Shown here: one piece after another, positions 1,590-43,457 of the stretch
Layout of the letters: the number at the start of each line of letters is the position of its first letter
Position numbering within the stretch: position 1 is the stretch's first letter
Assembly (NCBI RefSeq): GCF_040537815.1
Contig: NZ_JBEWSZ010000002.1
Coordinates: forward strand, 732,239-796,238
DNA length: 64,000 nucleotides
Direction of reading: 5' to 3'
Source: Mesorhizobium shangrilense
Lineage (GTDB): Bacteria > Pseudomonadota > Alphaproteobacteria > Rhizobiales > Rhizobiaceae
The notes under the pieces: generated by a model
Database searches by the model: none
What the model was told of the DNA's origin: nothing
The model's input: the letters and a program-made list of their open reading frames with translations, nothing else
Position numbers and translations under genes: made by a program

Positions 1590-4500
1590 ATGAACTTGCT
1601 GGATATTCAACTGCCTCTTGGCGAGTCGGCTGCCAGCTACATCCAATCCATCTTCGATCGGGAGATGGGCGTCACCCTGAGCAATGCGATCGCTGGTTCT
1701 TCCCGCGATGACGCGATGCGGGAGCTGACCCGGACCACCGCAGGACTATACGCAAAGCGCGTTCTCCGCGAACTCATCCAGAATGCCTTCGACGGGGCCA
1801 GCAAGGTCGGCGACGCTCGTATCGTGGTCCGCCTGGATATGAACCATGGCGACCACGGCACCCTCTACGTCGCCAATACCGGGGAGGGTTTCACCGAGAG
1901 CAATGTCGACGCGATCGCCAATCCGGCACTGAGCAACAAGCGCCCCGGCAATTTTATCGGTCACAAGGGCCTGGGATTCCGCAGCGTGGAACTGCTGTCT
2001 GACGAAGTCCAAATATTCTCGGTTGCCGGCGAAGGACGCAACGGAGGTACCTTCGACGGATTCTGCTTCCAATTCGCGACGGCGGTAGACGAGCGGAACT
2101 GGCTCGATGGTCACGGCGCGTCCGAGCACGCCGGGAAAGTCGTCGGCAGGGCGCATCGGCTCCAACTGCCCGTTCCCATCATCGATATTCCCCCGCATGT
2201 CCGCGATTTCGCAGCCGCTGGCTTCGCAACCCTGGTTAGGCTGCCCCTCCGCGACGAGTCCGCGGCGACACGAGCGGCGGAGGAACTAACTCTGCTCCTT
2301 GAAGAAGACACGTCTCTAACCCTATTCCTCGACCGCCTTTCATCCCTGACCCTCGAGCGAATTCCGGTCGAGGGCAAAACTGTTTCGAAGGTGCTTACCC
2401 GTACTGCTCGCAATCAGCGTTCGGTATCGCGTGGACGCGGGTTGACCATGCAGACCGTTTCGGTGGACCGGCGGCGCTATCTCATGGCGTCGATGCCAGT
2501 CGACGACGATGCGTTCCGGGAGAGCGTTGCCAAAGCTGTTGCCCAGCGTCACCCCGTCGAGAAGTGGTTGGAGTGGAAGGGCGCTCCGGCAGTATCCATA
2601 GCGATCCCACTGTCCGCCGACGCAAAGGCGGGCAACTACTTCGCGTTCCTGCCGATGGACACGGTCTCCCCATTCAACGGCTACCTCGATGCACCGTTCT
2701 ATCCGGACCCGGACCGACGAGATCTCGACCTTGGCAACCCGCTCAATGGCTTCTTGCTGGATTCGGTAGCCGAGCTTTGCCTGGCCGTGGCGGAGGAGCT
2801 TGCCGATGCCAATGAGGCCGATGTCGAGATGGCCGCCGCTGCAGTCGACGCGTTGTGCTGGTATGGAGATCCGGACCGGCTGATCGAAGCGGCTGGTCGA
2901 CTTGGCAGCGAGATCGGCGCGCTCCGCTTCCCCTCCATGCGAAGGAAGGAAGATGCGAGCCGCTGGGCCCGCCTCGATGTAATCTTTGACTGGGATGACG
3001 TCGACAAACGATACCTGACCGCAGGGCGTCTGGTCCGGGTGTGCAACATCCCGATGCTAAGGCGCAATCTCGGATCATCGCGCCTAAAGGCGCTACACGA
3101 TTTTGTCGACGCTACCGAGTTCGGGCTGTTTCCAGCCGCTTCGAATTGGACCGAATGGGCTCCGGCCCTGGCCGAAGACCTGAGATCCAAAGCCAAGAAA
3201 GTGCTGCTGGATTGGGACGATTTCTACGCCGATCTGGCCGATCTCAGCGGTGTCCTTCCGCATCTTCGTGGAACGACTATCTTTGTGAACGAGGCCGGCA
3301 AGCTGGTCGCGGCCAACAGCCCGGAAACGCTGGCGCAACGCGAGTTCTATATTCGTCCAGCACTCAGTAGCGTTGCCGGCCGACGAATCCGAAAGGTGGC
3401 AGGGACCGCATCATTCCCACCGAACAGCGTCGCCAAGAACATGGAGTTCGCCGACCCGGCGCTGCTATGGCCGGTCATTGTCACTAAGGCATTCTTCGAC
3501 GCTGGCCTGGCAACCGAGTTCAGCCTTCCCAAAGTCATTGAGGGCATCGGCAGATTTTCTGGGCAACGCCCGACCAAGCAAGTGCTGCTCGCCGTACTGA
3601 GATGGACGTTCTCCGCATGGTCAGCCAATAGAACGCCCGAGGTGGAAGCCGCGCTTCGGAAGGGCAAGTTCAAGGTACCACCCGCCGAAGGCAACTATCA
3701 GTTTGCGACGCAGCTACGGTTCGGTCGAGGGTGGCGTGATACCCAGGGCGATCTGCTTGCCGATTTCGTGGACAACGCCCATAGCGTTTCGCGTGCCGTG
3801 GCTAATATGCAAGGGTTACTTCTGCCCTCTTGGGACAAATGGCCCCTAAAGGAGCACGGGACGGCGGCAGATTGGACGGTCTTCCTCAGAGCCATCGGCG
3901 TTCGGGATGGCATTGTTACAAACTGGTACAAAGCAATCGAGTACCATGTAGACGTCTGGCGGGGATGGGTCGCTGGCTCGAATTCGCAGTTGCCAATCGA
4001 GAGCTCGTTGGGTGGTATCTGGCGGGAGGCAGTTCGCAATGCACCTGATCGACAAGGTTTCTCCTATCAGAGTGGTCACTACTCCACCGACGCCACTCTG
4101 ACTGCTTTCCCAGGGCAGGCAGATCACACCAAATTCTCTGACGTGGCCAAGCTGGCCTATGCGCGGCTGATCGCGAACTGCATTTCCTCAATCCCGACTG
4201 ACTCACTAAGCACTGTTCTCCGACGCACAAGTGGGAATTATGACACCGCCCGTTGGCCCAGCCCGTTGCTCGGCTTCCTCAGAGAAGCAGAATGGGTCCC
4301 TGTCCTCATCCACGACGCCATCGTGTGGAGGCGACCGCGCGACTGCTGGTACAGTCCCAGGACGGATCCGCTGCCACGTTTCGTTCCCAAGATTGATCGC
4401 TCCATTCGGGATCTTCTCGATGCTTCCGCGCAGACTAGGGATTTCTTCTCCAAGAGACTCGGCATGCGCGTGTGGCTCGAAACGTCGACCGCAATCGCGC

Positions 4501-6950
4501 GTCTGGAACATCTCGGCGAAATGCTTCAAGCCGGGACTGTTCCAGAAAGCGAGCAGGACAGCTTCCGCAAAGCCCATCGCGATGCTTGGATTGATTGGAG
4601 TAAGGGGGAACCCAAACTTGTCCTGCCGACCAGTCTTGTGCTTGCCGTGCAATCGGGCGGGCAGTTTGTGCCCTTCGTCACCGGGGGCGGTCCGGAGGAG
4701 ACCGGCGTCTTCATTGGGGATGGTGAGGACCAGGCCGTCGAAGGCCTGTTGGTCTCCCTCGGACACCCTCTGTTGCCGGCCCCGACCGGATCCGCACAAG
4801 CGATGCAGGAAGCGCTGTCCAAGACCCTGGCGAGCAGCCGCTTCGAACTGGTCTCGACCACCAAGCCCACCATTCTCATCGACGGCGCGGAATTCGACCC
4901 ATCGACTGCCTCCCGGCTGGTCGGCGATGGACGAGAGTGGCTCGCCGAGCTTGGCGTGCTGGTCCTCGAATTCAATCAAGGCTTTACCAACCGAAACACT
5001 GCGCGCACGCGCCAGTCACTCTTCGAGGCCTTCGGCCGACTGCACGTGAAGTTCGCGAATGAAGTGGCGGTTCGAATCGAGGGCAAGACCGGCGATCTTC
5101 CGCATGAACTCGATGGTGTCCTTGCAGTGCCCCACGGCGACCGGCCAACTCTGATTGTTCAGAGCCAGTCGACGAGCCTCGACTGGCCGACTCTTGCCAG
5201 ATTGTCCCGCGGCATTGCCCCGGCCGTGGATAGGGCTTGGTTGCATACGGACATGCGCATGGTATTCCAGGCGATCGCCGCAATGCACCCCCAGATCGGC
5301 GGTGGGCTTGAGCAACCCAATGACGAAGTCATTGCTCGAGCCATCGGGCAGCCAATCCACCGGGTTCGCGAAGTGCTTCGTTCTCTCAGATCAACCAGTA
5401 GAAGACTGTTCGACTTCTTGGTGCCAGCGGCGGTTGTCAGATGGGGCAGCGAGGTCGCTTACCTGTTGCTGGACGGCGAAAGCAAGTTCCTCGAGGATCA
5501 GGACATTGTCACCGCATTGTCGGCGACCGGGGTAGACCCGGCAGAGGCACGACAGGTCTTGTTACTGTGCCGCGAAGCCGACAGCATCGATGATCTGCGT
5601 CGCGCAATGAACGTGGACCTTCCCACCTTCAACATCGCATTGGTCGAACTGGGCTTGCCTTGGAAGCCGCTCAATTTCGAGGGACGGATTCGCGATGGCT
5701 TCGCCTCCCGGATCGCTGAGCGTCGCAACGCATTGGAACAACGCGTTCGTGACGCGTTCTTGAAGGATTTCGACGACCAGAAGGATCTTTCGCGATATGC
5801 CGAAGAACGGCGACTGTCGTGGCTCGACATCGACATGGGCTGGATCACCGCTCGAGACACGTTGGAAAATCAGCTGATCGACGACTATTGCAACGACCAG
5901 TTCGACAAGCGCTACGGTCAGCAAATCGACCGCGATGATCTCGTTTCGATCGAGACCACTCGCCAGTACAATCGTACGAAGCTGGTCGAGTCCGGCGAGA
6001 TGTTGCGTAAGCTTGTTTCTGCGTGGCACGCCAAGAATCCGCAACGTGGTACCATGCCCGACGCTTGGCGCGGAAACGTGGAACAGATTGCCCGAGATGC
6101 TATGGCCACTGGCGCGATGGACTTCAGACGCACCGACCGCGAGCAACTGCCGGTTCTCCTGGGCGTCGCGGGGATTTGGCCTCAGAGCATGCCTCGGTCG
6201 GTCGACCTTGCAGCCCTGGATTTGAAGGAGGACGATCTGCAGGTGCAGGCCCGACGTGAGCAGGAGAACCGCGAAGCTGCCGCAAAGTTGCGGAGAACGG
6301 TGACGATTGGGACTACGTCGATCGACGGCGGCCTTGAGGGTGCTTTCCAGGCAGCTGCAACTGCACTCGAAGCGAGTCTCTCGGGTGATGCATTTCTGTC
6401 GCGTTCCGGACCAGCAAATCTGCGACGATTCCCAGCCCAAGATGGCTCGGGCCGCTCTCGATCAGGTTCCCGTTCCGGTGGGAAGGACCCGGAATACATG
6501 TCGGACGAGCGACGTGGGCTGATCGGTTTCGCTGGTGAATACGCCGCGTACCGCTACCTCAAGAAGAACGTTCGCAATTTTTCGGACGAACACTGGATCT
6601 CATCCATGGGCCGCCGTTACCTTGCCCTCGCGGTGAGGCAGGACGAAGACGGCTACGACTTCGAGGTACCGAGGACCCGCGGCAACCTCTACTACGAGGT
6701 GAAGGCCCACGAAGGCGACCCGGGCCATGTCGATCTGGAACGCAGCCAAGTGGCGGCTGCTGTTTCATACGCCGACGAGAAGAAGGGGCGATGGCATATC
6801 CTCTACGTGGCGTACGCCACCAACCCGGATCGGGTCACGGTCTACGAACTGCCGAACCCTTTCAGCAAGAATGGGCTAGATCTCTTCCGCCCAAGCACAA
6901 GGCAGGGCGTCAGACTGCTGATCGAGCATGAAGATGAGTTTCTCAAATAG
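1590..6950 (+). CDS. Giant sacsin/HSP90-like ATPase with C-terminal DUF3883 nuclease-like domain
   Basis: A 1786-residue cytoplasmic protein. The N-terminus is a GHKL (HSP90/sacsin-type) ATP-binding domain: N-box ELIQNAFDGA at about 61-70, a G1-like NTGEGF at 96-101 and a G2 lid GHKGLGFRS at 124-132. The middle 1,400 residues match no domain I recognise. Residues about 1637-1770 form a DUF3883 domain with GFAGEYAA (Glu ~1650), YDFEV (Asp ~1690) and YYEVKAH (Glu ~1703, Lys ~1705), which is the E...D...ExK pattern of PD-(D/E)XK nuclease folds. The start has a good ribosome binding site (GGGGAGAAG, 6 nt). It faces the helicase/nuclease pair at 7064-13032 across a 113-base gap. Related HATPase-DUF3883 proteins often occur in defence islands (family knowledge), so an anti-phage or DNA-surveillance role is an inference. 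There is no signal peptide or membrane segment. Confidence 0.85.
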   Translation: MNLLDIQLPLGESAASYIQSIFDREMGVTLSNAIAGSSRDDAMRELTRTTAGLYAKRVLRELIQNAFDGASKVGDARIVVRLDMNHGDHGTLYVANTGEGFTESNVDAIANPALSNKRPGNFIGHKGLGFRSVELLSDEVQIFSVAGEGRNGGTFDGFCFQFATAVDERNWLDGHGASEHAGKVVGRAHRLQLPVPIIDIPPHVRDFAAAGFATLVRLPLRDESAATRAAEELTLLLEEDTSLTLFLDRLSSLTLERIPVEGKTVSKVLTRTARNQRSVSRGRGLTMQTVSVDRRRYLMASMPVDDDAFRESVAKAVAQRHPVEKWLEWKGAPAVSIAIPLSADAKAGNYFAFLPMDTVSPFNGYLDAPFYPDPDRRDLDLGNPLNGFLLDSVAELCLAVAEELADANEADVEMAAAAVDALCWYGDPDRLIEAAGRLGSEIGALRFPSMRRKEDASRWARLDVIFDWDDVDKRYLTAGRLVRVCNIPMLRRNLGSSRLKALHDFVDATEFGLFPAASNWTEWAPALAEDLRSKAKKVLLDWDDFYADLADLSGVLPHLRGTTIFVNEAGKLVAANSPETLAQREFYIRPALSSVAGRRIRKVAGTASFPPNSVAKNMEFADPALLWPVIVTKAFFDAGLATEFSLPKVIEGIGRFSGQRPTKQVLLAVLRWTFSAWSANRTPEVEAALRKGKFKVPPAEGNYQFATQLRFGRGWRDTQGDLLADFVDNAHSVSRAVANMQGLLLPSWDKWPLKEHGTAADWTVFLRAIGVRDGIVTNWYKAIEYHVDVWRGWVAGSNSQLPIESSLGGIWREAVRNAPDRQGFSYQSGHYSTDATLTAFPGQADHTKFSDVAKLAYARLIANCISSIPTDSLSTVLRRTSGNYDTARWPSPLLGFLREAEWVPVLIHDAIVWRRPRDCWYSPRTDPLPRFVPKIDRSIRDLLDASAQTRDFFSKRLGMRVWLETSTAIARLEHLGEMLQAGTVPESEQDSFRKAHRDAWIDWSKGEPKLVLPTSLVLAVQSGGQFVPFVTGGGPEETGVFIGDGEDQAVEGLLVSLGHPLLPAPTGSAQAMQEALSKTLASSRFELVSTTKPTILIDGAEFDPSTASRLVGDGREWLAELGVLVLEFNQGFTNRNTARTRQSLFEAFGRLHVKFANEVAVRIEGKTGDLPHELDGVLAVPHGDRPTLIVQSQSTSLDWPTLARLSRGIAPAVDRAWLHTDMRMVFQAIAAMHPQIGGGLEQPNDEVIARAIGQPIHRVREVLRSLRSTSRRLFDFLVPAAVVRWGSEVAYLLLDGESKFLEDQDIVTALSATGVDPAEARQVLLLCREADSIDDLRRAMNVDLPTFNIALVELGLPWKPLNFEGRIRDGFASRIAERRNALEQRVRDAFLKDFDDQKDLSRYAEERRLSWLDIDMGWITARDTLENQLIDDYCNDQFDKRYGQQIDRDDLVSIETTRQYNRTKLVESGEMLRKLVSAWHAKNPQRGTMPDAWRGNVEQIARDAMATGAMDFRRTDREQLPVLLGVAGIWPQSMPRSVDLAALDLKEDDLQVQARREQENREAAAKLRRTVTIGTTSIDGGLEGAFQAAATALEASLSGDAFLSRSGPANLRRFPAQDGSGRSRSGSRSGGKDPEYMSDERRGLIGFAGEYAAYRYLKKNVRNFSDEHWISSMGRRYLALAVRQDEDGYDFEVPRTRGNLYYEVKAHEGDPGHVDLERSQVAAAVSYADEKKGRWHILYVAYATNPDRVTVYELPNPFSKNGLDLFRPSTRQGVRLLIEHEDEFLK

Positions 6951-7063
6951 CGTCTTCCGGTAAGGCAATATCCTGCTTCCGCTGCCACGCAGTCGTCCGA
7001 CTTTGGCCCGAGAACGGCTGCGTCGGTCTGGGTTCGACCGAAAAGCGGTCAGGCAGCTCACGG

Positions 7064-10000
7064 CTAACGAAGATAGTGGTGCGTAGCTGCTGAGCTTCGA
7101 TTCACGGGCAGGACAGACACGATTTCGCCGGTAGTCATATATACGATCGCGCCGCGTGGCGCCGAGGTTGCTTGAAGGTAGCGCTGCAGTTGCTGAACAT
7201 ACGCAGCGCGGTTCAGGCTTGTGTCACGATCGCTCTTCCAGTCCAGAACTTCCACGACTTTGCCGCCCTCGATTGCGATCGCATCGACGCGGCCGGCGAG
7301 CAGAGTGCCGGCCTCTATCGCGCCCCAGATGGACAGTTCAGGCACAAGGATAGGCAAGAGACGTTGCACATACGGCAGCCGATAGGTCTGTAGCGTGGTC
7401 GTCGCGAGTGCGCCTGGAGCCGGGAGCGGTCCCTCCGCGGGGTCGATGGCAAGAAGCTCGTTGAGAAGACGTTCAGCGCGCGCGACAACGTCATCCTGCG
7501 GTGAGAGTTCGCCCGTCAGAAGTTCCTCCATAAGCTTATGAAGAACCAGCCCGCGAGTCCTGCCGGCGCCAATGGGCTCGATATATTCGAACGCGCCGCT
7601 CGGTTCGATCGCCATGGTCGGTGCGAGGATTTCGGCACGATCCGCATCGTGGGCACTGGGATTGATCCAGCGAAGTGATGGCGAGGCTGCCTGAACGATG
7701 GCGGCTTGCCGTGCGAAAGTATCTGCGTCCTGAGGCAACGCGGCCGCGTCGAAATTGGTGGTCATTAGTGGCTCGAGCTGGTTGAACTTCAATTCCTCAA
7801 GCAGGTCGAATCTCAGGTTGAGCAGTTTCGACCAAGCGCCCGGCTTGGCCGACGAAAGATTGGGAACGACCAACAGGTCGCGGGCGCGTGTAGAGGCGAC
7901 ATACCACATGCGTTGATGTTCCAGCGCCTGACGCTGCGCTTGCTCTTCGCGAGCACGCTTGAGCGCCAAGGAACAGACGCCGCCGATGATCCAGTGCAGC
8001 GTGTTGTCGGATTGACGATGAACGAAACGTTCGGAGGGTCTTGCACGCGTGCCCATGTTGATGGGGATCACCACCGGCCACTCAAGGCCTTTGGCGCTGT
8101 GAATGGTCACGATCTCGACCGCGTCCTTCGACGCGTCGATCCGGCCCTCCTGCCGCGAGGCGCGACGGTCCCAATCGAGCTGGAGATGACGGGCGAAAGA
8201 CCGGAGCCCCCGGACATCAAATGGCCGCGCCAGTTCAACGATGCGATCAAGATTGGCAAGTGAGCGCGCAGCCCGGTTGTTGCCGCTGCGCGCCGACAGA
8301 GCGACGCGCAGCTGAAGCTGCTCTATGGCCTCGGCCAACAAAATGCGCGGCGTCGTGACGTTCACCCGCGCGCGGAGTTTTTGCAGGTTCTCGAGAACGG
8401 AGCTGGCGATGCGATGGGACACCAGAGGCGGCGGTGTCGTGATGTCAAAGAGGCCAGTCGGTGAAGCGTCTGGTCCGGCCTGATGGACCTCTTCGGCGAT
8501 GTCGAGCAGCTCTTCATCGGTTAGACCCACCATGGGTCCACGCATGAAGGCACCGAAGGCAAGCCGGTCGCGCGAATCCGCCAGCGTCCGCAGCAGCGCC
8601 AGAACGTCCTGGGTCTCCTGCTGGAGCAACAGTGTCTTGCCAGCCTGCGACGCGACGGCAAGCCCAAGCGCCTCCAGTGCCCGTTCGTAGCGCCAAAGGT
8701 CAGTTCCGGTTGGAGCAAGCAGGGCAATGTCGCCCGCTTCAAGGAGGCGGCGCCTGCCATCGTGCTCGTCTTCGATCTCGATTGCTCCGACGAGTTTGGA
8801 ACATATCCGCGCAACGATGGCTGCCTCGTCGTCGCGCTGCTCGGGCATACTCGCCGTTCGACCGTCGCCAATGGTCACATGGGACGCGGAAGGCAGTCCA
8901 TGGAAGGCGCCTTCGCGTGTGGCGGTGAGTGCGCCATAACTTGGCTGACCGTCAGCATCAAGAACGGGTTGGAATGCGGCGTTCACGTAGTCAATGATGC
9001 CTGGCTGGCAGCGAAAGTTGGCCCCGATATGGACAACGCGTTCGTCCCCCAGGCGTCCAATCGTCCGCTTCGCCTGATTGTAGCTGTCGATGTCGGCACC
9101 ACGAAAGGCATAGATGGATTGCTTGGGATCGCCGACCATAAACAGCGCCCCGTCGCGAAGGTCGGCATCCTGCCAGCGATCGGGCATGGCGCGCGCCGCG
9201 ATCGAAAACAGGATGCTGGCCTGGATGGGATCGGTGTCCTGAAATTCATCGACCAGGATATGCGCAAAGCGTCGACCGACAGCCTCGCGCACGACATCGT
9301 TCTTGGTCACAAGGGCATGGGCGCGCAGCAGGAGGTCGTCGAAATCGAGGACAGCCGCGTCGCCCTTGCGTTCAACATAGAGGTCGGTGACGGGGTCGAG
9401 GGCACGTGACATCTGATCGACCATGGCATCGCCGATCTGGCCGAGGAGTTCTGCGAATTGCGTCTCACAGTCATGGGAATGCGTCTCGGCCTGGTGATCG
9501 AGTTCTGGTCCTTTGTCCTTGCCATAGGCCGATCTCCAATAGCCGAGATTGCGCTGCTTTTTAAAAGCGAACTCGTTCCATTTCATCGAGGCAGTGCGCG
9601 GCGGGTCGGCAAGTTCCCATAGCCGAGCAAATGTCGGCTGCGTCTCGAAGCAGTTCTCGTAGAATGCGGCGAGGGTTTCGAACTCTCCAACCAGGGTCCC
9701 GGTGCGGCCTTCCTTGGGATAGTCCGCTTGCCAGCGTCGGAACGCACGGACGCTCTCGACAAAATCGATATCCTTGCGCAGCGAGAAGTCGACCGAAGCC
9801 GTGCCGACCCCTGGGTGTTCAAGCTTGAGCTTGGCAAGGTCGAAGCTATCCTTGACGACCTTCAAGGGTTCGAACCTGGAGAGGACCGCGACCGGATCCT
9901 CGCCCCCCCTGGTTTGTAGGGAGAGACGCTCGAACAGCCATTTGGAGATGACGCTCTCGAACATCGTATCGGCCGCAGGCCCATCCATCATTCGCGATCC

Positions 10001-10399
10001 GGGATCGAGTCCCGTTTCGACGGCATAGGCCATGATAATCTGTTGGCAGAACGCGTGAATCGTGCACGCGGTTATCTCGTCGAAGGCATCGATTGCCGAC
10101 TTGAGGACAGCCTTCCGTTCGTTGAGCAGCTCAAGGGTTACAGCGCCGCGCAGGACCTTCGGGATTTCTCCTGCCAGCAACTCGGTTGCGTATTCGCGAA
10201 TACGCAGCGAAAGCTCGCTGGCGGCCAGTTCGGTAAACGTAATCGCGGCGATGCTGCGGGGCGGCGCACCGTATAGCATCAGCATGACGACGCGGCCGGC
10301 AATCAGCGACGTCTTGCCCGTGCCAGCGGCCGCTTCGACCAGCAATGTGCTGTCGAGTTCCGTGAGAACGCGACTGCGCTCGAACGCATCGCTCAGCAT
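7064..10399 (-). CDS. UvrD/AddA-like superfamily 1 helicase with RecB-type nuclease domain
   Basis: A helicase-nuclease of 1111 residues. SF1A helicase motifs are complete: Walker A AAAGTGKT (23-30), TIHAFCQ, Walker B LVDEFQDTDPIQ (~385), motif III VGDPKQSIYAFRGAD, motif IV NFRCQ, motif V TIHSAKGLEWP (~770) and motif VI RMWYVASTRARD. The C-terminus carries a RecB-family nuclease: RGLVLHKLMEELL, then GRVDAI and VLDWKSDRD (~1050). It is likely to unwind and cut DNA ends with the upstream partner. The ATG at 10399 is preferred: GGAGGG lies 7 nt upstream and it overlaps the partner's stop codon as TGATG, so translation is coupled; an ATG at 10414 would add five residues. It could be the housekeeping AddA, but its position beside the sacsin-like ATPase and the weak partner helicase domain suggest a separate defence-type AddAB pair. 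Confidence 0.85.
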   Translation of the reverse strand: MLSDAFERSRVLTELDSTLLVEAAAGTGKTSLIAGRVVMLMLYGAPPRSIAAITFTELAASELSLRIREYATELLAGEIPKVLRGAVTLELLNERKAVLKSAIDAFDEITACTIHAFCQQIIMAYAVETGLDPGSRMMDGPAADTMFESVISKWLFERLSLQTRGGEDPVAVLSRFEPLKVVKDSFDLAKLKLEHPGVGTASVDFSLRKDIDFVESVRAFRRWQADYPKEGRTGTLVGEFETLAAFYENCFETQPTFARLWELADPPRTASMKWNEFAFKKQRNLGYWRSAYGKDKGPELDHQAETHSHDCETQFAELLGQIGDAMVDQMSRALDPVTDLYVERKGDAAVLDFDDLLLRAHALVTKNDVVREAVGRRFAHILVDEFQDTDPIQASILFSIAARAMPDRWQDADLRDGALFMVGDPKQSIYAFRGADIDSYNQAKRTIGRLGDERVVHIGANFRCQPGIIDYVNAAFQPVLDADGQPSYGALTATREGAFHGLPSASHVTIGDGRTASMPEQRDDEAAIVARICSKLVGAIEIEDEHDGRRRLLEAGDIALLAPTGTDLWRYERALEALGLAVASQAGKTLLLQQETQDVLALLRTLADSRDRLAFGAFMRGPMVGLTDEELLDIAEEVHQAGPDASPTGLFDITTPPPLVSHRIASSVLENLQKLRARVNVTTPRILLAEAIEQLQLRVALSARSGNNRAARSLANLDRIVELARPFDVRGLRSFARHLQLDWDRRASRQEGRIDASKDAVEIVTIHSAKGLEWPVVIPINMGTRARPSERFVHRQSDNTLHWIIGGVCSLALKRAREEQAQRQALEHQRMWYVASTRARDLLVVPNLSSAKPGAWSKLLNLRFDLLEELKFNQLEPLMTTNFDAAALPQDADTFARQAAIVQAASPSLRWINPSAHDADRAEILAPTMAIEPSGAFEYIEPIGAGRTRGLVLHKLMEELLTGELSPQDDVVARAERLLNELLAIDPAEGPLPAPGALATTTLQTYRLPYVQRLLPILVPELSIWGAIEAGTLLAGRVDAIAIEGGKVVEVLDWKSDRDTSLNRAAYVQQLQRYLQATSAPRGAIVYMTTGEIVSVLPVNRSSAATHHYLR

Positions 10400-13032
10400 C
10401 ACCGCTCCCTCCAAAGGGGCGCGAGCTTGTGCTGCGCGGCGTTGAAACCTTCATCCTTGCGCCCCTGGTAGCGGTCGAGCGCCGCAGGCAGCGCGATCCT
10501 GAGTTGGTTGTAGCCAGCAAACGCATCTGGTCCCGGAAAGGCGATCCCACCTGTGAGCCCTTCGACCGCGATATCGATGAAGCGCAGCAGCGTCTCTTCC
10601 GCTTGCTCGAGCACATCGCCTTCAAGACGCGCGGGAGGTTCCATGGTGTCGAGGTAGACCAGGCGGGAGATGATCGTGCTTGCCTCGGGGATGAGCTGTT
10701 TGATCGTGACGGCGTAGAGCGCGCGCTGAACTTCCGCTCCGCCGGCGAGGATGACGTCGCGCAGATCGCGCGGGGTCTTGCCTGTCTTGTAATCGGACAT
10801 CCGGACGCCACGGCGGTCGGGCTTCACGTCGACGCGGTCGATGCGACCCTTCAAGAGGATGCGGAAACGGCCGATCAGGACCTCTTGTTCTTCGCGCCAG
10901 GGATCGGAACGCTTTGCCTGCGATTCAGGCGTGCCGAACGGCACCTCGCTGAAACTGTGGGTGCCAGGACCGAAGCGGTCATCGACTGTCAGTCCGCGGC
11001 GGGCCCGTCGCCGTGCCTCTTCGATCGTGTCCAGCCAGAGCAACCTCGGCGGCACTGCCCGGGTCAGCGGCCAGTGCTCCGCGATGGTGTTGGCTGCTGC
11101 CTCAAGCGCGGTATCGATTTCATCTGGCGTTGCGCTGACAAGGCTGGGCATGCGCTCGACCGCAAGGCGCAGCAATTCATGCACCAACTCGCCGAAGGTC
11201 ATCGCATCGAGTTGCAGCGGCTGAATAGCGAGCTCAGGCGCGGTCATCCCCAACACTCTTAGCCACACATAGCCCAAGGGATCACGCAACAGCCGCCGCA
11301 GCGAGGTAGCGGATTGCGGCAAGCTCAGAGCGCGCAGAACAGTCGGATGGTCCTTCCGGAACCCGCCGTCATGTGGCGTTGTTTCAAGCCTGCGCGTCCA
11401 GTCGGTCCAGCAGGAAATGACGCTCTGTATGCGCGGCAAGGCGAGCGCATCCTCGGCGCGAGCCAGCAGACGATCCCCCTCGCTGAACGCATGCTCCGGC
11501 GCTCTCGTCCGGGAAAGGGGACGCTCGGCAACCTGACGCTGCAGCAATCCGCTCTTGGCGATGAACGCGCCTTCGGCCGATCGCCTGCTGCGCGACAGGG
11601 TGACCTTCGAATCTGGGTGGCCGGTCAGGATCTCAAAGGCCAGCCGATCGCGCTCGAGCCGGGGCAGGTCCACCAACTCGCGCTCGTTGAGCACATGCTC
11701 GGGCAGGAGCGGGTCAGCGTTGCCGCCACGCGGCCAGCTTCTGCTCGAAAGCCCAAGCAGACGCATATGCTTGCGTGGCGCACCAACCAGGTCCGCCGCC
11801 CGTGCCCAGACCACATTGTTGGCAGGGTCGCGCTCATCCGCGATGCGCAACGACGTCAGAGTCATCTCCATTGCTGCCGCCGGCGCCAGACGAAGGGCCT
11901 CCTGCCAGAGCCCAAAGCTGCTGCCGCGCAGGAGCAACTTTCCGAGTTTGACCGCAGCTTTTGCGCCGTCCACAAGGTCATAAAGCACCGGCATCACGAT
12001 CGTTGCGATCGGGGGACCATCTGCAGGGGAGAGTGTCTCCAGACTTTTTGCCCAATGCTCCGGCTCAAACAGACCCGCCTCGGTGGAGATACCTTTCATC
12101 CAGTCAGTCGGAAGTGCCTCCGACAGATAGGGGGAGAGCTGGGACAGACGACGAATGCGATCCTGCGACAGACCGTTGATCATCGCATCGGCGAGCGCCG
12201 CGCAGGTCTGGCCGGCGCGCGTGCTCAGGGCTGAAACGCCGCCAGCGAAATGGATCGGGAGATCAGCGTCCGCCGCCAGGACCAGCATGTGATCATCCCA
12301 CACGCTCAAGTCAGCACTGGCGATCGCGATGTCGCTGGCTTGGGTCACGCCATCGCTCAACAACGCGCGCGCCCAGCGAAGCGCTTCAACCACCTCCGCG
12401 CGTGGATCGGCGCAAACCTCACAGATCAGCTGTTCGGGGCGCTGGAGGGGTCTTGCCAGGATCTTACCAGGAAACCAGCTCCGGTCGCGCGTGCCTGGCG
12501 CGTCCCACGTGATTTCGATGACCGAGGCGAGGGCTCCGACGAGGGGCCGCCAGAGCGGGTCGACGGAAACAAGACGGTGGAGATGGAGAGGGCCGACGAC
12601 AGTGCGCGCATGATCGATGCGCGCAATCGCCCGATCGCGCAGATCCACGGGCAATAGCGCGCCGGTTGGAAGATGCTCGCGTAAGAAGGCTTCGATGTGA
12701 CCAAGGTCGCTCAGCCTGGCGCTTGGATTGAGTGGATCGAAAAGGCGAATGTCAGCGGCCCACACGCGCTCCAGACTGGAGAGGACAGCCCGCGCCATGC
12801 CAGGCCTTGCCTTGACCTTTTCGAGTTCTTCAAAAGTAATCTCTGCAAGTGCTCGGGCAACGATTGGCACAAGCGTTGCGTGGTCGGCTGGTCGGCTGAA
12901 ACCGCCCGCGAGGCGCGCCGCGAGCAGCGGGACTGTGGCGACGTCGAGACCGTGGTCACCCGCTTGCGCGGCTGCGACACGTTGCATGCGAAAGGCTAAG
13001 GTGCCCTCGACGACGACGGTGTGACGTTCCAT
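10399..13032 (-). CDS. AddB/RecB-like PD-(D/E)XK exonuclease subunit
   Basis: An 877-residue protein and the first gene of a two-gene operon with the helicase. The C-terminal third (~590-830) is a PF12705-type PD-(D/E)XK nuclease: TFGELVHELL (His of the motif), KGRIDRVDV (Asp), RMSDYKTGK (D...K) and QRALYAV (QhxxY motif). The N-terminal two thirds resemble the degenerate helicase of AddB-type subunits. I see no intact Walker A and no four-cysteine iron-sulphur cluster pattern. It probably pairs with the downstream helicase as an end-processing heterodimer. The ATG at 13032 is the only good N-terminal start; the stop codon shares one base with the next gene's ATG. Whether it is housekeeping recombination or defence is undecided; the neighbouring sacsin-like ATPase argues for the latter. 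Confidence 0.8.
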   Translation of the reverse strand: MERHTVVVEGTLAFRMQRVAAAQAGDHGLDVATVPLLAARLAGGFSRPADHATLVPIVARALAEITFEELEKVKARPGMARAVLSSLERVWAADIRLFDPLNPSARLSDLGHIEAFLREHLPTGALLPVDLRDRAIARIDHARTVVGPLHLHRLVSVDPLWRPLVGALASVIEITWDAPGTRDRSWFPGKILARPLQRPEQLICEVCADPRAEVVEALRWARALLSDGVTQASDIAIASADLSVWDDHMLVLAADADLPIHFAGGVSALSTRAGQTCAALADAMINGLSQDRIRRLSQLSPYLSEALPTDWMKGISTEAGLFEPEHWAKSLETLSPADGPPIATIVMPVLYDLVDGAKAAVKLGKLLLRGSSFGLWQEALRLAPAAAMEMTLTSLRIADERDPANNVVWARAADLVGAPRKHMRLLGLSSRSWPRGGNADPLLPEHVLNERELVDLPRLERDRLAFEILTGHPDSKVTLSRSRRSAEGAFIAKSGLLQRQVAERPLSRTRAPEHAFSEGDRLLARAEDALALPRIQSVISCWTDWTRRLETTPHDGGFRKDHPTVLRALSLPQSATSLRRLLRDPLGYVWLRVLGMTAPELAIQPLQLDAMTFGELVHELLRLAVERMPSLVSATPDEIDTALEAAANTIAEHWPLTRAVPPRLLWLDTIEEARRRARRGLTVDDRFGPGTHSFSEVPFGTPESQAKRSDPWREEQEVLIGRFRILLKGRIDRVDVKPDRRGVRMSDYKTGKTPRDLRDVILAGGAEVQRALYAVTIKQLIPEASTIISRLVYLDTMEPPARLEGDVLEQAEETLLRFIDIAVEGLTGGIAFPGPDAFAGYNQLRIALPAALDRYQGRKDEGFNAAQHKLAPLWRER

Positions 13033-14296: not shown

Positions 14297-15523
14297 ATCT
14301 ACGAAAGCGTGCTGCAGCACAATCGTTGCAACGCAGTCACCTCGACCAGGTCCTTGCGGGACATCACTCTGCCTCAGGCAGATTCTGGAATTCTGTTCGC
14401 GCCAAGTCAGTTGGTCGCCGCGGCTTTGCCCTCCCAGCGATATTCGGTTCCCTCCGCCCAGATACGATGCATGACGATGGCGAGCTTCCGCGCGACGGCC
14501 ACAACTGCCCGCCGAAGGCCGCGCCTCTTCGCAACCGCGAGGCCCCATGCCCTGATGGCCGAGTTCTTGGTCGAGCGCGTCAGCAACGCGAGACTGGCCT
14601 GGTAGAGGGTGGACCGCATTGCGACGTCACCGCATTTGGAGATGCCGCTGTTTCGGTCGACCTCTCCGGAGGCGTATTTCTTTGGCGTCAGGCCAAGATG
14701 TGCGCCGACGTCTCGAGAGCGTTCAAAGCGCGCTGGGTCATCAATGGTCGTGAGATAGGTCACGGCGGTGATCGCTCCGACGCCAGGAATGGTCATCAGC
14801 CGGCGGCAGGTTTCGTCTTTTCGAACCATGTCGAGCATCATCTTGTGCAACACCGCGCATTGCTGCCGAAGAGCCGCCCGGGCTATCAGCATCGGTTTCA
14901 CCATGGCCGCCAAGCGGGGCGCGTTCTCAATCAGGTCCAGGACGCGGCCTTCGAAAGGGCCAGAGGTTATGCGACCGGCGAGCTTGATGCCGAAGACGCG
15001 GAGCGTCCCGCGGATTTCGTTCTCGATGTCGATCTGTTTCGTCTGCAGCGTACGACGGTTGCAGAGAAGCATTCGGATTTCTTGGCTCTCATCACTTTTG
15101 ACATGGACAATGGAGAACCAGCCGACGCGCATGCATCCGGCGATCGCGCGCGCATCGTTACGGTCGTTCTTGATGGGCATCGTCTTGGTAAGGGCCCGCA
15201 GCCGCCTCGGATCGATGCAGATTGCGGCCAGACCGCGCTTCCTCAGGCCGTTGTATAACCAAGCTGCGGTTGCGCCAGCTTCAAGGCCAACTCTTGCCAG
15301 ATTCAGGTCGAGCCGCTCGAGCCAGTCGGCGATATCGTTTGGATCCGATGCAGCCACTCCTTCGCGGAAAATGATACCGTCCTCGTCGACCACGCAGATT
15401 GCGGTTTCAGCCAACGACACATCCAGACCGACATAGTGCTTCATGCTCTGCTCCCTTTTCGAACATCACGTTGCGCGAAGCAGACCAAGACTTGGGAGCG
15501 ACCGCAATCACCCCATCTACGAA
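14297..15523. mobile_element. IS110-family insertion sequence (tentative ends)
   Basis: The element contains one transposase gene (14407-15444). IS110 elements usually lack clear terminal inverted repeats and none is obvious here. The same 9-mer ATCTACGAA occurs at 14297-14305 and 15515-15523, enclosing about 1.2 kb, a normal IS110 size, so it may mark the target or the ends. That is tentative because the left flank does not continue the interrupted SRAP gene on the right. Confidence 0.5.
14407..15444 (-). CDS. IS110-family transposase
   Basis: A full-length 345-residue transposase. The N-terminal DEDD (RuvC-like) domain begins YVGLDVSLAETAI, with further acidic positions in VGLEAGATAAWL and the KNDRNDARAI motif. 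The C-terminal Transposase_20 (IS116/IS110/IS902) domain has MTIPGVGAITAVTYL and LGLTPKKYASGE. IS110 enzymes use a bridge RNA and a conserved serine for recombination. Nothing is truncated, so it may be active. It lies between the TauE gene and a beheaded SRAP gene. Confidence 0.92.
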   Translation of the reverse strand: MKHYVGLDVSLAETAICVVDEDGIIFREGVAASDPNDIADWLERLDLNLARVGLEAGATAAWLYNGLRKRGLAAICIDPRRLRALTKTMPIKNDRNDARAIAGCMRVGWFSIVHVKSDESQEIRMLLCNRRTLQTKQIDIENEIRGTLRVFGIKLAGRITSGPFEGRVLDLIENAPRLAAMVKPMLIARAALRQQCAVLHKMMLDMVRKDETCRRLMTIPGVGAITAVTYLTTIDDPARFERSRDVGAHLGLTPKKYASGEVDRNSGISKCGDVAMRSTLYQASLALLTRSTKNSAIRAWGLAVAKRRGLRRAVVAVARKLAIVMHRIWAEGTEYRWEGKAAATN

Positions 15524-27759: not shown

Positions 27760-28848
27760 ATGCTCCGAGGGCGCTTCAGTGGCCTTTCTGCGTCAAACCC
27801 GTTGATCGATCGGGCGCCGTTCAAACCCTTCGACCCGATCGCCAATCAGGCGGCCGCCGCGCGCAGCGAACGTCAGGGGCGGCCCGACGCTTGCCCGTCG
27901 TTCAGGACGTTTACCACGCCGCGGTTCGCAGCAAGCAGGTTCGGCCGGCGAAGCCTTGCCCTTGACGGGAGCGAGCACGGTGGCAGGCTGCAGACGCGTC
28001 GGGAACGTGGTGCATGTGATTTTATCTGCCGAGGCATTGCAGCACTGTCTGCAAGCGTCATGCTCACCCTTCCAGCGCCTACTGTCTGTGCAGAGCTTTC
28101 CGCTCATCGTGAGCGGCCGGCGCACTCCGGCAGCACCATCTCGTCCTCTGATCCCTGGTCGGTGCATATCCGGGAGGCTGCCAAACGCTTTGCCATTCCC
28201 GAGCGGCTGCTTCGCGCTGTCATGCATGTCGAGAGCGTTGGTGATGTTCATGCGGTGTCGAGCAAGGGCGCGATGGGCTTGATGCAGCTCATGCCGGCGA
28301 CATGGGAGGAACTGCGCATCAGGTATCATCTCGGAGACAATCCTTATCTGCCGCGCGACAACATTTTCGCAGGTGCAGCGTATCTCCGCGAGATGCTCGA
28401 CCGCTTCGGTCGCAACGGCTTCCTCGCGGCTTACAATGCCGGTCCTGGGCGATACGAAGGGCACCTTGCAACCGGTCGGCCGCTGCCGCGTGAGACGATC
28501 GACTACGTCAGGAAACTCGCGCCTTTGATCGACGGAACAGCTCCCATTCCGTTGCGCGCACGGCAGGCGGCGGGCAGAGCGAGCGCATTTGAAGCGGCGG
28601 TTTTCGCGCGTGGCGGAAGCACACGGAATAGCTCAGGTTCGCAAGGCGATCACCAGACCAATATTCCTTTCGAAACTGTGTTCACGGCGATCCGCTCACC
28701 CAGCGTGAGATCACCAGCGGTTAAAGCGGTCACCGATCTTACCGCGCTCGTACCGCCACAGGACGGCTCGCGCAGTGAAGGTGGACTGTCTCCGCCCTCT
28801 GCTGTCCATAGCCCGTTTGCGCAGGGTTCGTCCGAGACGTCACAATGA
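27760..28848 (+). CDS. Lytic transglycosylase (SLT/VirB1-like)
   Basis: A protein of 362 residues. The SLT domain lies at about 135-245: FAIPERLLRAVMHVESVGD (catalytic Glu), SSKGAMGLMQLMPATW, YLREMLDRFGRNGFLAAYNAGPGR. A hydrophobic stretch at about 95-112 (GIAALSASVMLTLPAP) may be an export signal, so translation could start later than ATG 27760, within the long arginine-rich N-terminus. It would cut peptidoglycan locally for the conjugation channel. It is four bases after DUF736 and is the last gene before the IS66 insertion; the Pro/Ser-rich C-terminus is unremarkable. Confidence 0.82.
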   Translation: MLRGRFSGLSASNPLIDRAPFKPFDPIANQAAAARSERQGRPDACPSFRTFTTPRFAASRFGRRSLALDGSEHGGRLQTRRERGACDFICRGIAALSASVMLTLPAPTVCAELSAHRERPAHSGSTISSSDPWSVHIREAAKRFAIPERLLRAVMHVESVGDVHAVSSKGAMGLMQLMPATWEELRIRYHLGDNPYLPRDNIFAGAAYLREMLDRFGRNGFLAAYNAGPGRYEGHLATGRPLPRETIDYVRKLAPLIDGTAPIPLRARQAAGRASAFEAAVFARGGSTRNSSGSQGDHQTNIPFETVFTAIRSPSVRSPAVKAVTDLTALVPPQDGSRSEGGLSPPSAVHSPFAQGSSETSQ

Positions 28849-29017
28849 TCGGTGCATTGCTGGTCAATCGCATTCCGGCCTGTTCCGTCGCAGAAATTGC
28901 GGAGGGAGGGTGGGTTTCGGGGCAGCACGGTAAGCGTTCGGCCACTGCACGTCAGGTCAGGCTTGACATGAATCCTGGGTTTGCAGGTTCAAGGAGGCAG
29001 GCCGTCGACGCAGCCTG

Positions 29018-29227
29018 CTATTCTCCGGGAGCTTCCGATTTCGCGATTACTGCTTCAGCACGCTCTATCGCGGCACGAAGTTCATCGCTCTGCCATGAAT
29101 CGGCGGAATGGCCATCGTCGAACGATCGGTCTTGCGTCTCTCGCGCGCAAGACGTCAGCTCACGAAGCGCGGCAATGGCCTCGGCAAGCAGTCTTGCCTC
29201 TGCTCCGTTTGCTGAAGACTGGGTCAT
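29018..29227 (-). CDS. Small passenger ORF inside the IS66 element
   Basis: A 69-residue frame (MTQSSANGAEARLLAEAIAA...), helical and acidic, ending KSEAPGE. It lies downstream of tnpC, within the IS ends, and GGGGAT stands upstream of the ATG. I do not recognise it. Some rhizobial IS66 elements carry a short frame here; it may also be noise. Confidence 0.4.
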   Translation of the reverse strand: MTQSSANGAEARLLAEAIAALRELTSCARETQDRSFDDGHSADSWQSDELRAAIERAEAVIAKSEAPGE

Positions 29228-29342
29228 CTGTTTATCCCCATCACACTGCAACTATGAATCATCAACCGGGGTCGCCACAACATACGACCACCGCCATTGT
29301 GTGTTGTCCAATACTCATCATTCGGCGAGACCCAAGGCTTGC

Positions 29343-30872
29343 TCAGTCAGCGGCCCGGCCATGCGCTACCCAGTTCCATGGCAGCAATTCGTCAAGGCGG
29401 TTGATGGGGTACCCGTCAACCATGCGCGCGAGCACGTCCTGAAGATAGGCGTAGGGTTCGACGTCGTTGAGCTTGCAGGTTTCGATGAGCGAACACAGCA
29501 CCGCCCACCGATGGCCGCCGCCGTCGCTGCCCGCGAAGAGATGGTTCTTGCGGCCGAGCGCGACAGGTCTGATCGCGCGCTCGACCGGGTTGGTGTCGAG
29601 CTCGATGCGGCCGTCGTGCAGGAAGCGGGTCAGGCCGTCCCAGCGCGAGAGCGCATAGCGGGCGGCTTCGGCGAGCGTACTGCGACCCGACAACAGCGGC
29701 AGCTGTGCTTCGAGCCAGATCCGCATGGCGTCGACGATTGGTTTGGAGCGGCTGCGCCTGGATGCAAGCCGATGGCCCGGCGATTGACCCCGAACGTCGG
29801 CCTCGACAGCATAGAGTTCGCCTATCCTTTGCAAGGCTTCCACCGCGATCGGCGCGCTGGTCGCCTGCGCCACGTCGTAGAACTTGCGCCGTGTATGGCT
29901 CCAGCACGCGGCCAGAACGATATCTCCCTTGCCGGTAAGGCGCTCGAAGCCGACATAGCCATCGACATGCAGAACGCCCTTGAAGTGCTCGAGATGCGAG
30001 ACGGGACGTTCGGCCTTGCGGTCCGGCGCGAACACATAGACCGCGGCCGGCGGCTCCGGTCCGCCCCATGGCCTCTGCTCGCGGGCGTAGACCCAAAGCC
30101 TTCCAGTCTTGGTGCGGCCGCGGCCTGGATCGAGCACCGGGACCGGTGTGTCATCGGCAAAAAGATGGTTCGAGGCGAAGATGCTTTTGGCGAGCCGCTC
30201 GTGCAGGGCTTCGAGCCACCAGCAGGCGCCGCCGACCCAGCCGGCAAGGGTGGAGCGCGGAAGTTCGACGCCATTGCGGGCGAAGATTTGCGACTGCCGA
30301 TAGAGCGGCGTGTGATCGCAATATTTGCTGACCAGCACCTGCGCCAGCAACGCCGGCGTCGCCAGACCGCCAGCGATTGGCCGCTCCGGCGCCGGCGCCT
30401 GCATCACCGTCTCGCAGGTCCGGCAGGCATATTTTGGCCGCGTCGTCCTGATCACGCGAAGCTGCGCTGGCACCCAATCCAGCATCTCGCTCACGCTTTC
30501 GCCGATGGCATGCAGCGCGCCGCCGCAGCAGGCGCAGACCATGCTGTCGACATCGACCAGGACGTTTTCGCGCGGCAGATGATCGGGCAGCGGCTTGCGA
30601 TGCGACGGCCGCTCAGTCGACGGCTTGCTGACGAACAGACGGCTCTCCTGGATGCGCGCGACGTCAGCGTCGAGTTCTTCCAACGCGAGTGCAAGCTGAT
30701 CGGGATCGAGCCGCTCCGAGCTGCGGCCGAACTGCGCCCGCTGGAGCTTTTTGATGATCGAATGAAGCCGCTCGATCTCCCCGTCGCGGCTCTCGACCGC
30801 AGCCGCCATGTCGTGCACGAGGCGTTGAAGAAGTGCTGGATCGGACGGCAGGTTTTCGAGATCGACCAACAT
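29343..30872 (-). CDS. tnpC: IS66 transposase TnpC
   Basis: The DDE transposase of the IS66 element, about 509 residues from the ATG at 30872 (MLVDLENLPSDPALL); an ATG at 30896 would add eight. The order is an N-terminal coiled coil (MAAAVESRDGEIERLHS), a zinc finger (VCACCGGALHAIGE ... YACRTCETV), then the catalytic core with FADDTPVPVLDPGRG (Asp), LHVDGYVGFERL (Asp) and the C-terminal NPVERAIRPVALGRKNHLF box (Glu). Full length and apparently intact. Confidence 0.92.
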   Translation of the reverse strand: MLVDLENLPSDPALLQRLVHDMAAAVESRDGEIERLHSIIKKLQRAQFGRSSERLDPDQLALALEELDADVARIQESRLFVSKPSTERPSHRKPLPDHLPRENVLVDVDSMVCACCGGALHAIGESVSEMLDWVPAQLRVIRTTRPKYACRTCETVMQAPAPERPIAGGLATPALLAQVLVSKYCDHTPLYRQSQIFARNGVELPRSTLAGWVGGACWWLEALHERLAKSIFASNHLFADDTPVPVLDPGRGRTKTGRLWVYAREQRPWGGPEPPAAVYVFAPDRKAERPVSHLEHFKGVLHVDGYVGFERLTGKGDIVLAACWSHTRRKFYDVAQATSAPIAVEALQRIGELYAVEADVRGQSPGHRLASRRSRSKPIVDAMRIWLEAQLPLLSGRSTLAEAARYALSRWDGLTRFLHDGRIELDTNPVERAIRPVALGRKNHLFAGSDGGGHRWAVLCSLIETCKLNDVEPYAYLQDVLARMVDGYPINRLDELLPWNWVAHGRAAD

Positions 30873-30944
30873 GATCGATTCTATCACAAACAGCACAAGA
30901 ACCCAAGGATTCCGGGCTTCTTTACGACAGTAGAAGTGCCGGTT

Positions 30945-31298
30945 TCAGCCGGCCAGCATCGGTCGCCAGAAGCGTTCCGGCGCGCGCCAGTCGATGCCCT
31001 CGATGAGCATCGCGAGTTGTGCTGGCGACAGTGCCACCGAGCCGCCTGGCTCAGCCAGGCGCGGCCACATGAACTGTCCGTGATCCATGCGCTTGGTGAA
31101 CAGACACAGTCCCGTTCCGTCCCAAAAAAGGATCTTCAGGAGCGAGGCATTCTTGCCGCGGAAGACGAACAGATGACCCGAGAAGGGATCCTTCTTCAGA
31201 TGCTCCTGGATCAGCGTGGCGAGCCCATCGAGACCTTTGCGCATGTCAGTGTGACCCAACGCCAGATGCACTTTCACACCCGCCGGAACGACGATCAT
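30945..31298 (-). CDS. tnpB: IS66 accessory protein TnpB
   Basis: The 117-residue IS66 Orf2 protein (not the RNA-guided TnpB). It shows VHLALGHTDMRKGLDGL, FVFRGKNASLLKILFWDG and GLCLFTKRMDHGQFMWP, the family core. It is required with TnpA and TnpC for IS66 transposition. Its start overlaps the tnpA stop by four bases (ATGA). Confidence 0.93.
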   Translation of the reverse strand: MIVVPAGVKVHLALGHTDMRKGLDGLATLIQEHLKKDPFSGHLFVFRGKNASLLKILFWDGTGLCLFTKRMDHGQFMWPRLAEPGGSVALSPAQLAMLIEGIDWRAPERFWRPMLAG

Positions 31299-32215
31299 GA
31301 TGCCTTCTCCTTGCCGGCCAGGTGCCGCTTGACCGCAGCCGCAGACGAGCCCGCCGGCGCAAACACGCGCCGCCCATCATCCAGTTCGATCGCCACCATG
31401 CCGTCCGGCGGCCGCACGAGATCGCGCAAGGCGGCAAGCGCCGGCGGCTCAGTTTCACCTCCATCGGCGAGCTCGACCAGCGCCAGTTCCGGCGCCTTGC
31501 GGGCGGTCAGGCCGAACTCCTCCCGCCAGCGGAAGGCCATGCTGGTGGCAATGCCATGGCGGCGGCAAACTTGCGCCACAGCGACGCCGGGCTTCTCCGT
31601 CTCCTGCACGATCGCCCGCTTCTGCTGCTCGGTGAAGCTGCGCCGGTGCGATCGACCGTCCACCGCGTCGGGTGTCAAGCGATATTGGCGCCGCGCGCAA
31701 TTAGCAGCGCTGCTTAATTGGGCCCGGGCACTGGGATGAAGAAGCAATCGCCAGTCCATTTCGTCGCCGGATTCTTCCAGGCGATCGCGCCAGATCCGCA
31801 ACGCGTGTCGCGAAAGTCCGAGCGCGGCGGCGTACTCGGCATGGCCCATGCCGCTCCAATTCAGCGCCTCGACATGCATGCTCCAGAACGCCCGCAGAGC
31901 AATCGGGCCGCTGTCCGTGCGCTTGCCGTAACGATAGCGGGGCCGCCTCTGGGGACGCTTCGGCTGTTGCGTCTTGCGCTTACGTCCGGACTTCTCGCGG
32001 CGCAAATTCTGCAGCTTTTCCGCACGCTTGCGCAGGTCGTCGCCGCTCACCAGATGGTGCATCCACAGATCGAACGTCCTGATCGAGAGATCGCGCCGGC
32101 GGCAGAATTCCTGCGCACTGAGATTGCTGGCGATCCAGCTCGCGACCTGCGACGACCAGTAGGGGCTGTTGGCCTTGGCCCAGGAGCGGCGAGGCGCCAT
32201 CCGAATATCCTCCAC
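31295..32215 (-). CDS. tnpA: IS66 accessory protein TnpA
   Basis: The first gene of the IS66 operon, 306 residues, longer than the ~150 residues of minimal TnpA. The N-terminal half is an extra segment (SPYWSSQVASWIASNLSAQE, ALGLSRHALRIWRDRLEES). The C-terminal half is the usual TnpA: HRRSFTEQQKRAIVQETEKP, VAVAQVCRRHGIATSMAF and RWREEFGLTA, a helix-turn-helix that binds the ends. The extended N-terminus resembles elements often found in rhizobia. Confidence 0.88.
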   Translation of the reverse strand: MEDIRMAPRRSWAKANSPYWSSQVASWIASNLSAQEFCRRRDLSIRTFDLWMHHLVSGDDLRKRAEKLQNLRREKSGRKRKTQQPKRPQRRPRYRYGKRTDSGPIALRAFWSMHVEALNWSGMGHAEYAAALGLSRHALRIWRDRLEESGDEMDWRLLLHPSARAQLSSAANCARRQYRLTPDAVDGRSHRRSFTEQQKRAIVQETEKPGVAVAQVCRRHGIATSMAFRWREEFGLTARKAPELALVELADGGETEPPALAALRDLVRPPDGMVAIELDDGRRVFAPAGSSAAAVKRHLAGKEKAS

Positions 32216-32398: not shown

Positions 32399-32456
32399 AA
32401 CCGACGCGTTTTTTCAATCGTTCCAATGGAAATCGCACCTCGCGGTGTCCGCAGCC

Positions 32457-43441: not shown

Positions 43442-43457
43442 CGCAGAGGGGCTCTCG

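Follow-up and report, generated by a model that had tools for sequence, protein, structure and literature searches.

The window, by which we mean the whole 64,000-nucleotide stretch of DNA analysed here, carries near its left end a large ATPase gene that faces two coupled genes for an AddA-like helicase-nuclease and an AddB-like nuclease (hereafter "the pair"). The three open reading frames (ORFs) and their motifs lie where the first-pass annotation had placed them, as confirmed by the ORF listing and by Pfam, and the TGATG junction that it read between the helicase and nuclease genes is present at 10397-10401.

1590..6950, + strand: TmtA-type (Tiamat-like) stand-alone ATPase gene, 1786 aa; PADLOC model PDLC03971 (TmtA), 1515.8 bits
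1755..2015, + strand: GHKL (HSP90/sacsin-like) ATP-binding domain of the ATPase, residues 56-142; Pfam HATPase_c, NCBIfam P_loop_sacsin and invariant residues
6543..6824, + strand: C-terminal NOV_C/DUF3883 domain of the ATPase, residues 1652-1745; Pfam NOV_C, E 0.012, under the cut-off
7064..10414, - strand: AddA-like helicase-nuclease gene, 1116 aa from a TTG start or 1111 aa from the in-frame ATG at 10399
7160..7558, - strand: RecB-type nuclease domain of the AddA-like protein, residues 953-1085; Pfam PDDEXK_1, motif residues in 92-96% of 49 sequences
10397..10401, - strand: TGATG stop/start overlap, from the AddB-like to the AddA-like gene; AddB stop and AddA start overlap at 49 of 50 pair loci
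10399..13032, - strand: AddB-like gene, 877 aa; PDDEXK_1, E 1.3e-18
10600..11313, - strand: RecB-type nuclease domain of the AddB-like protein, residues 574-811; Pfam PDDEXK_1, conserved motif residues

In the window, the ATPase gene and the pair are convergent, tail to tail, with a gap of 113 bp, so that a shared transcript would be unexpected there, and they are not one operon. The region as a whole resembles a mobile element that has integrated. A tyrosine recombinase gene lies just left of the window (L011 18297-19532; so annotated in two of the five matches listed), and an IS110 transposase and a DUF3363 relaxase-type gene occur within it at 14407-15444 and 32445-34196, respectively. Neither attachment sites nor element ends were found, and the tRNA-Arg gene at 38617-38693 has no repeat of 14 or more bases within 84 kb. 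Four same-strand genes of lower GC (0.51-0.56) occupy 41338-47198, the third with a weak ZorB-like (MotB) match and the last, of 1259 aa, with a caspase domain (E 1e-10 for Pfam Peptidase_C14 and E 1.6e-12 for the PADLOC caspase model). A 964-aa ORF at 28845-31739 is matched by neither Pfam nor PADLOC. Since its plasmid matches fall under IS66 annotations, it could be a shadow ORF opposite an IS66 element.

The TmtA model covers nearly all of the ATPase (residues 13-1777, profile positions 12-1777 of 1782). Within the protein, HATPase_c (Pfam, E 8e-7) and P_loop_sacsin (NCBIfam, 63.8 bits against a cut-off of 50) are recognized, whereas the matches to SACS (23.8 of 32.8 bits) and NOV_C (16.1 of 22.1 bits) stay under their Pfam cut-offs. 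Across 42 aligned ATPase homologues the GHKL residues E61, N65, D68, N96, G98, G124, K126, G127 and G129 are invariant, as are the C-terminal residues E1650, D1690, E1703 and K1705, and the E...D...ExK pattern suggests that the C-terminal domain is a PD-(D/E)XK-like nuclease. TmtA is, we presume, the gene of the Tiamat system, which is defined as a stand-alone gene and was reportedly described by Millman and colleagues in 2022. The window ATPase shows each of the features expected of it, namely the full-length model match, an intact GHKL ATP site and a gene that stands alone. Judged by that full-length match, it is a known kind of stand-alone anti-phage ATPase gene and not a new one; the suspicion of an undescribed defence component was right for the two genes of the pair and wrong for the ATPase, a family that PADLOC already models. 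Tiamat has also been counted among island defence systems in a paper on Pseudomonas islands (PMC12629846).

Relatives of the ATPase are numerous (116 listed in the protein search), the closest among the matches listed being P0122 (85%) and P0123 (79%). Fifteen plasmid records hold a relative, four of them over most of the ATPase length, and the own genome holds a single TmtA gene. Across 56 TmtA loci, the window included and six of them being the same locus seen twice, no ORF family besides TmtA recurs at more than eight. Within the genus sample TmtA occurs only once more, at L158 (G053:C218), where it is broken into separate ORFs of 1328 and 499 aa; the pair in that genome lies on a different contig.

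The first-pass annotation had proposed that the three genes form one defence system. This is not borne out by the genome samples, which comprised 101, 394 and 385 genomes, overlap, and contain many drafts: the set occurs together in the own genome only. Among the 101 relatives, a full-length AddB-like gene is found in 14 genomes (16 loci) and TmtA in two, the own genome and G053, where it lies in two frames; the genes adjoin in the own genome only. The count of 14 was obtained from 67 genomes matched at E<=0.001 by keeping full-length matches above 800 bits, the other 53 genomes reaching 27 bits at most. In the family sample of 394 genomes TmtA is found in nine, the pair in 23 and both in three (G000, G131 and G397), and in the class sample of 385 genomes the figures are three, eight and two (G000 and G551), with TmtA and the pair adjoining in both samples in G000 only. 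Of the 55 other TmtA loci, 49 of them distinct, none has the pair; 36 of these 55 are flanked by 5 kb or more in both directions. Nor was the pair found within the flanks of at least 80 loci from a TmtA contig scan, which sampled distant kin only, mostly 22-29% identical. The nearest relative of the pair that was found, at L130, has an AddB-like protein 90% identical to that of the window and no TmtA. The trio as a single system was rejected on these grounds. A young local combination, peculiar to this lineage, in which the three genes cooperate would fit their adjacency, the 113-bp convergent spacing and the defence-type character of both items, but with a convergent arrangement that is no operon, a set seen at no other locus and that same TmtA-free relative we regard it as very improbable. 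The ATPase and the pair are two separate items, neighbours by chance and not one system, and are better studied apart.

What kind of enzyme the pair encodes can be read from its domains. The AddA-like protein combines a UvrD-type SF1 helicase (Pfam UvrD-helicase, E 4.4e-52) with a C-terminal RecB-type nuclease (PDDEXK_1, E 4.4e-7), as AddA does, and in the PDB it matches RecB (E 1.5e-29) and AddA (E 1.8e-26). It nevertheless fails the NCBIfam family cut-offs, with 235-238.4 bits against 860.75 for TIGR02784 (addA_alphas) and 184.3 of 707.65 bits for TIGR02785. The AddB-like protein has no NCBIfam addB match and a weak one to Bacillus subtilis AddB in the PDB (E 0.65); its profile aligns with the AddB of the own genome at a probability of 94.5 (E 7.9e-8, 266 columns), in the C-terminal part only. 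By its works the pair appears to be of the AddAB type, although it fails the AddA family cut-off.

A housekeeping addAB that merely happens to lie nearby was the alternative raised in the first-pass annotation, and gene order and domain make-up are indeed those of addB-addA. The genome, however, has a canonical AddA on contig C1 (L012; 1556 bits, above the curated cut-off, against 238 bits for the AddA-like protein of the pair), followed by a 1040-aa AddB, and the window protein is only 24% identical to this canonical AddA. Of the 61 same-genus genomes, 47 lack the pair. Together, the canonical AddAB on C1 and the patchy occurrence of the pair refute the housekeeping reading, to which we give next to no credence. 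A second addAB elsewhere in the genome, for which the first-pass annotation had suggested looking, exists twice over, as the canonical AddAB and as a further copy of the pair on contig C3, without TmtA, whose AddA-like and AddB-like proteins are about 81% and 78% identical to those of the window. This second copy is flanked by a VWA-PP2C-kinase row and, on the other side, by an SDH-type protease and a JAB-ThiF gene (L009 14858-18248, L010 7082-9686). In each of the 14 same-genus genomes with the pair, an additional ORF as large as canonical AddB gives a weak match (about 19-23 bits), confirmed as AddB in the own genome only.

To follow the pair beyond the window we compared 50 loci: two in the own genome, 42 in other whole genomes and six in plasmid records. 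These include 44 of the 49 loci from the genome searches (G130, G323 and G145, all three partial, as well as G774:C170 and G1022 were omitted) and six of the 61 plasmid records with a pair. The AddB-like gene is present at all 50 loci, and the AddA-like gene follows it as a clustered ORF at 49 and as a fragment at the fiftieth. As expected of coupled addAB genes, the AddB stop overlaps the AddA start at 49 loci. Protein distances of the two subunits are correlated at 0.99 over 47 loci, compared with at most 0.14 in 1000 permutations. Conservation is 92-100% for Walker A, the DEFQDTD (DExQ) motif and the nuclease residues in the two subunits, with the AddB-like nuclease residues H, D, DYK and E/Q..Y present in 50 of 50 sequences. 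The overlap, the distance correlation and the conserved motifs together point to one coupled, co-inherited and apparently active two-subunit enzyme.

This unit is patchily distributed (14 of 101, 23 of 394 and 8 of 385 genomes in the three samples, and 14 of 61 same-genus genomes), and a phylum sample of 229 genomes yielded three matches, none of them outside Alphaproteobacteria: the own genome, a second from its order and a third from its class. It occurs in 61 plasmid records, 40 of them typed conjugative and 52 conjugative or mobilizable, while some copies lie on chromosomal contigs (L115, L148). Recent transfer is indicated by L147 and L161, which have the Hma system in common and near-identical AddB-like proteins although their genomes come from two families (f93 and f1). 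A phage-borne module was also considered and rejected: the viral contigs held no relative (seven pattern matches, none confirmed), and 50,697 phage records gave no match.

Such a distribution could also be that of a module serving recombination or upkeep in the large plasmids and integrated elements of Alphaproteobacteria, working in end repair after conjugation or in resolution, with the defence genes around it as passengers. Along with the plasmid records just mentioned, repABC genes in some of the flanks and DUF1403-ScpB, which has the look of plasmid upkeep, at 10 of the 50 loci make a plasmid role possible. The reading is at odds, however, with the absence of the pair from most sampled genomes, with its chromosomal copies and above all with the company it keeps. 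The nearest ORF of at least 200 aa on each side of the pair (71 proteins, 36 loci) was compared with those at a distant site on the same contig (72 proteins), roughly opposite or, for two chromosomal contigs, 100 kb away; 14 loci, the six plasmid records and eight others, had no control site. PADLOC models match about 23 of the 71 neighbours at E<=1e-20 and 2 (at most 4) of the 72 control proteins, at which four models match, probably in two proteins (Fisher 1.5e-6 with two controls, 3.4e-5 with four). The enrichment of known defence genes that the first-pass annotation had envisaged is thus present near the pair, and we consider the upkeep reading unlikely.

The matched neighbours are GajB (7), ZacA (4), AbiEi (3) and one each of GajA, TmtA, Drt1a, SngC, BilD, BovA, AbiEii, PprPIWI and HerA; the remaining 48 of the 71 are unmatched by PADLOC at this threshold (1e-20). 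The count of 23 takes seven single matches to be seven proteins and would fall to 17 if they were one; with 16 matched neighbours the p values are 3e-4 against two controls and 4e-3 against four. These counts are not independent, as four of the GajB-like cases form one clade and L147 and L161 are near-identical.

Across all 50 loci, clusters with PADLOC-matching representatives place AbiE at 13, Gabija (of two kinds) at 10, Hma at 7, Azaca at 5 and Shango at 3. At least one of AbiE, Gabija, Hma, Azaca, Shango and TmtA is found at 31 loci, and at 37 once multiubiquitin/ThiF or JAB-ThiF modules are added; 13 loci have neither a named system nor a ubiquitin-like module. On a quick tree of 48 AddB-like proteins the minimum numbers of changes are 5 for Hma, 5 for Azaca, 6 for Gabija and 10 for AbiE, counts in which gain and loss are not separated. 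Some neighbours are very close: 2 bp separate SngC from the AddB-like gene (L018, L149) and 4 bp the AddA-like gene from ZacA (L146, L147), in each case on one strand. An SF2 helicase of 1113 aa (cluster c18; weak PADLOC match to PbeA, 48 bits) occurs at six of the 50 loci and at four of them starts 13-23 bp downstream of the AddA-like gene on the same strand (L018 18047-21382; L124 16074-19412; L125 13700-17038; L148 2911-6249); it is possibly a third subunit or else a separate defence gene.

Two further arrangements recur upstream of the pair. At L122, L127 and L140-L143 the pair is directly preceded by a block of genes for a protein with IrrE, UvrD and PDDEXK domains (as read in L122), a multiubiquitin protein and a DUF6791-ThiF protein. 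Most of these loci add another small gene, and PADLOC matches neither the multiubiquitin nor the ThiF gene of the block. At L118, L120, L136 and L137 a 309-aa gene (cluster c33), which in L120 has no Pfam match, ends 10-19 bp before the AddB-like gene.

We favour, with moderate confidence, the explanation that the pair is a mobile AddAB-like module for DNA-end processing which accompanies whatever defence system it lands beside, in the window Tiamat. It is weakened by the many neighbours that PADLOC leaves unmatched, by the 13 loci with neither a named system nor a ubiquitin-like module, by DUF1403-ScpB at 10 loci, by the faint sequence relationship to AddB, by the lack of a common operon with TmtA in the window and by partners none of which is constant, so that the pair and the defence genes may do no more than occur in the same islands. 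The pair could, for instance, be an independent two-gene defence system that needs no partner and occurs in islands only through the clustering of defence genes. It is the only constant unit across the 50 loci, 13 of them lack a named partner, and close relatives differ in their neighbours, as do the window (TmtA) and L130 (none). Against this, the same-strand gaps to Shango and Azaca genes (2-4 bp) and to the SF2 helicase (13-23 bp) suggest shared transcripts at some loci, and a bare exonuclease would repeat the job of the host AddAB. We rate such independence as a serious alternative that nonetheless falls well short of being probable.

AddAB-type enzymes load on double-strand ends, unwind DNA with ATP and cut both strands. 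Under the favoured explanation the mobile region would hold two separate defence-type items, tail to tail. TmtA would act on its own as a Tiamat-type protein that switches through its GHKL ATPase and ends in a nuclease-like domain, and the pair as an accessory AddAB-type machine apart from the host AddAB, carried on plasmids and integrated elements. The AddA-like motor and the AddB-like subunit would most likely load together on double-strand ends, and ATP-driven unwinding would be followed by strand cutting at the two RecB-type nuclease sites. Complex formation, degradation of DNA ends and help to partner systems are what we infer. The help might take two forms. The pair could degrade linear phage or plasmid DNA, whether just entering the cell or previously broken by the adjacent system, or it could stand in for a host AddAB blocked by phage, so that host ends are protected and the partner hits invaders only. 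In strain PA14, according to PMC12407980, RecBCD protects DNA ends from Gabija, a system present at 10 of the 50 pair loci, and phages that keep RecBCD away become sensitive. A spare AddAB could thus finish broken DNA or guard host ends.

A broader version would make the AddAB-class helicase-nuclease a general plug-in of immunity, a coupled moving pair joined repeatedly to unrelated systems (Gabija, Azaca, Shango, Hma, AbiE, DRT, ubiquitin-like modules and Tiamat) as a phage-proof second AddAB that destroys broken invader DNA and shields host ends from the nuclease of its partner. We put this forward tentatively, as an idea with rather less than an even chance of holding. AddAB and RecBCD are treated as housekeeping enzymes, which some defence systems guard or compete with. 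If the idea is true, a mobile, partner-changing second AddAB makes the link between RecBCD and defence a heritable and testable module, and it points to helper genes that are missing from the PADLOC library.

Among known systems, the ATPase resembles Tiamat in its GHKL domain, its C-terminal nuclease-like domain and its standing alone at the other loci seen; nothing was found that separates the two, a likeness known here from sequence. The pair resembles AddAB in its addB-addA order, in a UvrD helicase with a RecB nuclease, in a second RecB-type nuclease on the AddB-like protein and in the alignment of that protein's C-terminal part with AddB. It differs in an AddA-like subunit far under the family cut-offs, in a shorter AddB-like subunit (877 versus 1040 aa) and in being accessory, patchy and additional to the housekeeping AddAB. 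With GajB of Gabija the AddA-like protein shares a UvrD-type helicase, weakly matching GajB models (115.9 bits at best, PADLOC) and structures (E 5.7e-13). GajB, however, has neither a nuclease domain nor an AddB partner, and RecB and AddA match the AddA-like protein far better. The Gabija assignment fails in the window trio, as no GajA (OLD-type ATPase-TOPRIM) is present and the partner of the helicase is a PD-(D/E)XK protein. No PADLOC model matches the AddB-like protein at E<=0.01, and no description of the pair was found among titles and passages from one open-access library.

Two papers are precedents for the helper idea and not for these proteins. A nuclease-protease pair is recruited by several defence systems (PMC12799240) and, like the pair, is a two-gene nuclease module adopted repeatedly by unrelated systems, but it consists of an MBL-type pro-nuclease and a protease, partly fused to core genes, whereas the pair joins a helicase to a nuclease and no fusion was seen. 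For fused UvrD-Cas4-like proteins (pfam12705), an ancillary role in different defence pathways has been proposed (PMC5704561); these share with the pair a helicase and a RecB-like nuclease, with WYL regulators nearby in both. They are single fused proteins beside type III restriction or Dcm/Vsr genes, whereas the pair comprises two AddA/AddB-type subunits and stands beside Gabija, Azaca, Hma, Shango, AbiE and others.
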